The notes beneath the pieces were generated by a model. That model saw nothing but the letters and a program-made list of their open reading frames with translations. It made no database searches and had not been told where the DNA came from. A stretch of 64,000 bases of DNA from Acidilobaceae archaeon (GTDB lineage: Archaea; Thermoproteota; Thermoprotei_A; Sulfolobales; Acidilobaceae), in NCBI GenBank assembly GCA_027037535.1, contig JALVZQ010000005.1, forward strand, positions 1 through 64,000, written 5' to 3'. Positions 59,111-59,936 of this stretch are shown in pieces. The position numbers and the translations under genes were made by a program. Numbering within the stretch: position 1 is the stretch's first letter; each line of letters opens with the position of its first letter.

Positions 59111-59728
59111 CTACCTCGCTTTATCTCTACTATCTAGCCGTAGGACTCCCTTCCTGATTAGGAGCTCTAGGCTCTTCCTTAAAGCTCTCCTGATTCTAGC
59201 TCTACGTGTTGGATCCCCGTATAGTCTATAGGCAGTGCCTCTGATACTATTTGTTACTGTTAGATCTCGTAGTATCCTTCTCTCCTCCTCGCCTAGTTCT
59301 TTGTCAAGGTATCTTAGAGCTATTCGTGCAATGTCTCCAGGACTGAGGCCCAGATAAGGGTCTTCGCTGTCCAAGTGATCTAGTCTCTGGACTAGGTCTA
59401 GGTATATTATTGTGACTGGTTCTTCTGGGTGTATTCTGCCATATGCTTTTCTGAGGGCTTCTAATAGTTCTCTTCTATTATTGAAGCCGTCTAGCCGGGC
59501 ATCATTATCGTCTAGTTCCTTTACTTTTTTAACTTTGAGATCTACGACTCTAACCTTTGCGATTGGTCTCCCACCACTATGGACTATTAGTTCGTTGTAC
59601 TTGGGGCGTACTATTCCTATCCTTATCGTTGTCTTTTTCTTTCCTTCTAGCAGTTTCTCTCCATATTCCTTCTTCAGCATTATGTGTCTTCCAATAAACT
59701 GGGTTTTCTTCTTCTTATTAGCCTCCAC
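59111..59728 (-). CDS. ASCH-domain protein (PUA-like, RNA-binding), about 205 aa
   Basis: The ASCH pattern is clear: KKEYGEKLLEGKKKTTIRIG (about residues 20-39), followed by GGRPIAKVRVVDLKVKKVKELDDNDARLDGFNNRRELLEALRKAYG and VTIIYLDLV (quoted in part), a beta barrel related to PUA domains and thought to bind RNA or act as a coactivator. A basic helical C-terminal region (RRARIRRALRKSLELL) follows. The ORF-track start 59872 runs through a structured RNA-like region; GTG at 59728, with TAGGTGGA upstream, is the likely start. Confidence 0.8.
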   Translation of the reverse strand: MEANKKKKTQFIGRHIMLKKEYGEKLLEGKKKTTIRIGIVRPKYNELIVHSGGRPIAKVRVVDLKVKKVKELDDNDARLDGFNNRRELLEALRKAYGRIHPEEPVTIIYLDLVQRLDHLDSEDPYLGLSPGDIARIALRYLDKELGEEERRILRDLTVTNSIRGTAYRLYGDPTRRARIRRALRKSLELLIRKGVLRLDSRDKAR

Positions 59729-59754
59729 TGCTACTCCACCTATATTGGCCGATG

Positions 59755-59871
59755 ATAGACCGCTGTCCCACGATACAGTGTGTGGGGCAGCGTTTGATAG
59801 CCTCTCCGCTCCTGTGTGGAGGGGCGATGTCATGGGGCCAAAGCGTTGAGGCCCCTCTCTTCCTTCTAACA
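59755..59871 (+). ncRNA. Candidate structured non-coding RNA upstream of the ASCH gene
   Basis: Hairpin 1: CGCTGTCCCAC (59761-59771) pairs with GTGGGGCAGCG (59782-59792), with a 10-nt loop. The sole non-Watson-Crick pair is U-G on the plus strand and would be C-A on the minus strand, which favours the plus strand. Hairpin 2: GGGGCC (59834-59839) with GGCCCC (59850-59855). A CTCC/GGAG stem sits between, and ACA occurs at 59869-59871, as in an H/ACA tail. A TATA-like CTATATTGG lies near 59739. GC content exceeds that of its surroundings. The ASCH ORF extension through it lacks typical coding character. Confidence 0.45.
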
Positions 59872-59936
59872 ATAGCTAGTCTTCGCTACTATTGTAAGGC
59901 TAGGAGAGAGAAATGTAGGTGACAGACCTGATATAA

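Follow-up and report, generated by a model that had tools for sequence, protein, structure and literature searches.

In Sulfolobus acidocaldarius, Um34 has been detected on tRNA-Gln(UUG) by mass spectrometry, and a C/D sRNA has been assigned to U34 and G18 of this tRNA, citing snoRNAdb and Ziesche 2004 (PMC7668247). Judging from the sequence match, this guide would be sR14 (Rfam RF01145), a family that S. acidocaldarius carries and for which it was our named positive control. Archaeal guides are said to need a C'/D' motif (PMC8413462). In Pyrobaculum, single-target tRNA guides are reported in which one guide matches a tRNA and the other is targetless (Lui et al., 2018, as reviewed in PMC7994747).

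In this study, we analysed a 64,000-nucleotide stretch of DNA (the window) from an Acidilobaceae archaeon (assembly GCA_027037535.1, contig JALVZQ010000005.1). We found that its plus strand very probably carries the gene for an elongated sRNA of the sR14 family of box C/D sRNAs (RF01145), a guide for tRNA methylation in thermophilic archaea. We make this assignment by homology, structure and the match between guide and target; expression, protein binding and methylation are what we infer. The RNA shares with the sR14 of Sulfolobus the D guide GGGGCCAAAGC, its position before box D, the kink-turn geometry and the occurrence of one copy per genome. Unlike the 54-nt sR14, it is at least about 107 nt long, carries two hairpins in place of the D' guide and the D'/C' motif, and has UUGA as box D. 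The same Um34 is predicted for this RNA as for the S. acidocaldarius guide (PMC7668247), whereas its target spans a tRNA splice junction and, as it has no second guide, it would have no G18 target. The second guide of the Pyrobaculum single-target guides is described as targetless; here, a stable hairpin stands in its place.

Layout of the locus

The features of the locus are as follows (window coordinates).

59111..59728, minus strand: ASCH-domain protein (Pfam PF04266), corrected start GTG 59728 (ORF listed from TTG 59872); homologues align mostly from query residue ~49-59
59715..59721, plus strand: possible TATA element TTATTAG, a weak consensus match ~32 bases upstream of the RNA
59747..59853, plus strand: very probable sR14-type box C/D sRNA, minimal extent including both strands of the terminal stem; core kept in the closest relative, guide and box D recurrent in the class, relatives matching RF01145
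59747..59757, plus strand: 5' terminal stem GGCC (59747-59750), 3-nt bulge GAU and box C core GA-U-A (59754-59757), from the kink-turn scan
59761..59792, plus strand: hairpin 1, 12 bp, replacing the D' guide; seen in folds, and in the same place with another sequence in G004 and G002
59795..59832, plus strand: hairpin 2, 5 bp, a 2-nt GA bulge (59826-59827) and 10 bp, replacing the D'/C' motif; seen in folds, with compensatory changes within the genus
59834..59844, plus strand: guide GGGGCCAAAGC, forming 11/11 Watson-Crick pairs with spliced tRNA-Gln(UUG) and placing U34 where methylation would occur
59846..59853, plus strand: box D variant UUGA (59846-59849) and 3' terminal stem GGCC (59850-59853), from homologue comparison and the kink-turn scan

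The span 59747-59853 is a minimum delimited by the terminal stems, and the true ends of the RNA may differ. A single base separates the guide from box D. The word TTATTAG also occurs ~30-36 bases upstream of several extended homologues, being shared by some loci only. ARAGORN found no tRNA in the window.

A sequence-only reading of this DNA had proposed that a structured plus-strand RNA was being counted as an N-terminal extension of the ASCH protein. This proposal is borne out by the folding, by the conservation and by the non-coding character of the extension. Its plus-strand hairpin with a G-U pair corresponds to hairpin 1, which has one internal and one terminal G-U pair and is indeed overlapped by the ASCH ORF as listed from TTG 59872. 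Hairpin 2, which is the stronger one (15 bp), and the 5' kink-turn strand were absent from that reading, the latter lying mostly before the start of the region it had delimited.

Downstream, an inverted repeat, CTAACAATAG / CTATTGTAAG, occupies 59866-59898, flanked by the sRNA and the PALP gene end, and its version in the closest relative (G003) has 9 bp and a different loop. This element may be a terminator or a processing signal.

Conservation and relation to Rfam sR14

A raw-DNA search of the relatives returned one near-identical copy, in G003, and many short matches to a single 23-base piece. The relatives' loci have a common layout, in which one stem strand leads into a middle part that varies, followed by GGGGCCAAAGC-NNN-GAG and then by the opposite stem strand. 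Of the 214 genomes of the order, 63 contain this 17-base pattern, nearly always as a single copy, and none contains the reversed control; for the class, the count is 66 of 229, again nearly always with one copy each. Seven bacterial contigs from the exact genome-contig scan were taken as chance and left out. A brief look at genomes lacking the exact pattern indicated that the first guide base varies. In the window, positions 59834-59850 match the pattern exactly, with the sR14 D guide next to box D, and this is the only copy in its genome. G176 matches the guide pattern at a second site as well, with GGGGCCAAAGCCTAGAG (G176:C30:5224-5240).

Between the window and G003, the RNA core shows 0 substitutions and one 1-base gap in 111 columns. 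By comparison, identity is 87.5% in the ASCH coding sequence and 72.5% over the 80 bases that follow on the far side.

The link to sR14 comes from the homologous 50-55 bases of Sulfolobaceae and one other family, which match the Rfam model at 39-57 bits (cut-off 38), the matches covering exactly the GGGGCCAAAGC guide. RF01145 scores above the cut-off in only 18 of the 214 genomes of the order. It gave no relevant match in the window at the gathering threshold or at relaxed E-values, and none in the window's genome at E<=0.01. Membership of the family is therefore established through a chain of relatives. The model has 54 positions and no room for inserts, so a miss in the window fits the long inserts of this RNA.

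Predicted tRNA target

The complement of the guide, GCUUUGGCCCC, corresponds to the anticodon arm of the tRNA that ARAGORN calls tRNA-Gln(UUG) in G004, G041, G050 and G193, where this target is intact. The guide base opposite U34, the wobble base, is the fifth upstream of box D, as in sR14. In the window's genome, tRNA-Gln(UUG) is locus L152 (G000:C5:174176-174277, minus strand), which ARAGORN mis-names tRNA-Ser(UGA) and which has an intron at the canonical position, after position 37. This intron splits the target: the spliced tRNA pairs with the guide at 11/11 positions, compared with 7 Watson-Crick pairs and one G-U in the unspliced form. Hence, methylation of U34 is predicted to follow tRNA splicing. 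The next best tRNA, tRNA-Gln (CUG), matches at 10/11 with its mismatch at the methylation base. Among 43 tRNAs, ~0.0007 perfect 11-base matches would be expected.

No full sense-strand match to the guide was found in the 16S and 23S rRNAs of relatives, the best matches being antisense. A search for 16S and 23S in the window's assembly found none; this assembly has an estimated completeness of 99.9%, and several other assemblies likewise yielded neither rRNA. The D' guide of G193 had no strong match to tRNA-Gln and thus did not reproduce the reported G18 target.

Kink-turn and hairpin inserts

The plus strand folds better than the minus strand over 59755-59871 (-57.5 versus -44.5 kcal/mol; z -4.6 versus -2.95). 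For each locus, we scanned for an upstream strand that pairs with the bases after box D and is followed by a 3-base bulge and then GA. The window kink-turn found in this way is GGCC-GAU-GA-U-A with U-U-GA-GGCC. Box C6 and box D1 form a Watson-Crick pair in 35 of 46 candidate loci (19 GC, 9 TA, 4 AT and 3 CG), the pair in the window being A-U. Shuffling gave a mean of 14.9, and 0 of 5000 shuffles reached 35; this control ignores sequence relatedness, but the lineages differ between the four pair types. The terminal kink-turn and its closing stem are thus present in geometry and with covariation, while the literal consensus is relaxed (AUGAUA and UUGA versus RUGAUGA and CUGA). A box D of UUGA instead of CUGA counts against the sR14 guide reading, as do the missing RF01145 match in the window, the absence of a canonical C'/D' motif in this genus and the outcome of the unconstrained fold.

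The terminal stem of the window has four pairs only, and the unconstrained fold favours pairing of the guide with the 3' strand. Hence, the kink-turn form probably depends on protein. Since a kink-turn is present, the RNA is probably of the L7Ae type. For hairpins 1 and 2, free and constrained folds agree.

The earlier reading had also described a GGGGCC/GGCCCC hairpin and a trailing ACA. The former, in which GGGGCC is the start of the guide, can form in the isolated window sequence, but it is not conserved: in 24 of 34 homologues, the 3' strand fits the 5' terminal strand better than it fits the guide, and the reverse holds in 4. Hairpins followed by ACA in the window would suit an H/ACA-type pseudouridylation guide ending at 59869-59871. 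However, the ACA is not conserved, with 6 of the 34 loci having one at any position within the following ~20 nt, the one at 59869 is part of the separate inverted repeat, the window has no Rfam H/ACA match, and the relatives are C/D RNAs by Rfam. We consider an H/ACA guide vanishingly improbable, and the RNA is best read as an sR14-type C/D guide.

Box C and the guide lie ~26-42 bases apart in compact forms (Sulfolobaceae and several others) and ~46-105 in extended ones. In the window, as in several lineages, a hairpin stands in place of the D' guide. In lineages such as those of G166 and G029, which carry such a hairpin, the D' CUGA and a C' UGAUG-like box are still visible. D' CUGA and C' UGAUGA can be seen in other lineages but not in the window's genus, where a second hairpin takes the place of D'/C' too. 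A canonical C'/D' motif and a second guide of 10-12 nt were sought in the window, and the region consists of two hairpins instead. We therefore file this RNA as a variant and not as a textbook archaeal box C/D sRNA.

The outer pairs of hairpin 2 differ within the genus while its shape is kept: they are UGAUA/UGUCA in the window's genome, UGCUA/UGGCA in G004 and GGCU/GGCC in G002, so that the compensatory evidence comprises three clearly distinct sequences. All three have a small asymmetric bulge on the 3' side, of 2 bases or, in G004, of 3. G004 has two sR14 genes (L004 and L017) on different contigs, with different versions of hairpin 2 and an identical guide.

The lack of a recognisable C'/D' motif, the departure of box D from CUGA and the missing RF01145 match would all be expected of a decayed sR14 pseudogene that had lost its guiding of methylation and kept its hairpins by chance. 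Such decay is hard to reconcile with an RNA core free of substitutions beside an ASCH coding sequence that has diverged by 12.5%. Moreover, the guide is still fully complementary to the spliced tRNA of its own genome, C6-D1 is preserved as A-U, hairpin 2 has undergone compensatory changes within the genus, and the gene is single in the genome. Altogether, we regard a pseudogene as very unlikely and favour a functional sR14-type guide.

The neighbouring ASCH gene

The start of the ASCH gene is best placed at GTG 59728, because the alignment of most homologues begins only near residue 50 and the extension region of several of them contains stops (in-frame in G002, G011, G021, G012 and G030). The sequence GGTGGAG lies just upstream of this GTG. 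Both the window and G003 have an open frame throughout the extension, as they would if it were translated as the ASCH N-terminus. These stops, the start of most homologues near residue 50 and the lack of synonymous changes relative to G003 in the overlap, as constraint on an RNA predicts, leave translation with practically no credibility. The overlap is better explained by the sR14-type RNA. No ASCH gene was found in viral contigs.

In many genomes, spread over four families, ASCH lies next to the RNA in divergent orientation, and this arrangement would be compatible with a cis-antisense or leader RNA regulating ASCH, or with a riboswitch formed on the minus strand. The suggestion that the RNA is antisense to the ASCH transcript found no support. 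The RNA begins ~19 bases upstream of where ASCH starts and thus lies outside the corrected gene, and the tRNA-Gln guide is kept in Sulfolobaceae and in G004, where ASCH is not adjacent. In addition, the minus strand folds worse and would lose the match between guide and tRNA, and the conserved bases of the RNA are those that match tRNA-Gln. These data make regulation of ASCH highly improbable and again favour a tRNA guide. The divergent sR14-ASCH pair, kept across four families, may reflect a functional link or just a stable neighbourhood.

Discussion

Our results point to a mechanism in which the ends of the RNA would pair and boxes C and D would form a kink-turn, to which L7Ae, Nop5 and fibrillarin would bind. 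Once GGGGCCAAAGC had paired with the spliced tRNA-Gln(UUG) at its anticodon arm, the wobble base U34 would be 2'-O-methylated by fibrillarin.

As far as the open literature searched shows, the elongated single-guide form is new; older work on the sRNAs of Aeropyrum or Ignicoccus could hold similar cases. A more speculative proposal, which we hold only tentatively, is that this RNA is a working archaeal C/D guide with one kink-turn, whose D'/C' half has been swapped for two hairpins to give an asymmetric single-guide particle, and that, across the order, compensatory changes have let the pair between box C and box D drift freely.

The identification of this RNA adds a missed gene for tRNA-Gln wobble methylation across a large archaeal class, in which the current Rfam model detects well mainly Sulfolobaceae. 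A guide that has lost its second guide and, in one genus, a recognisable C'/D' motif would provide a direct natural test of the need for C'/D'. Finally, the box C/box D pair covaries through four pair types within the C/D kink-turn, which is usually regarded as a fixed motif.
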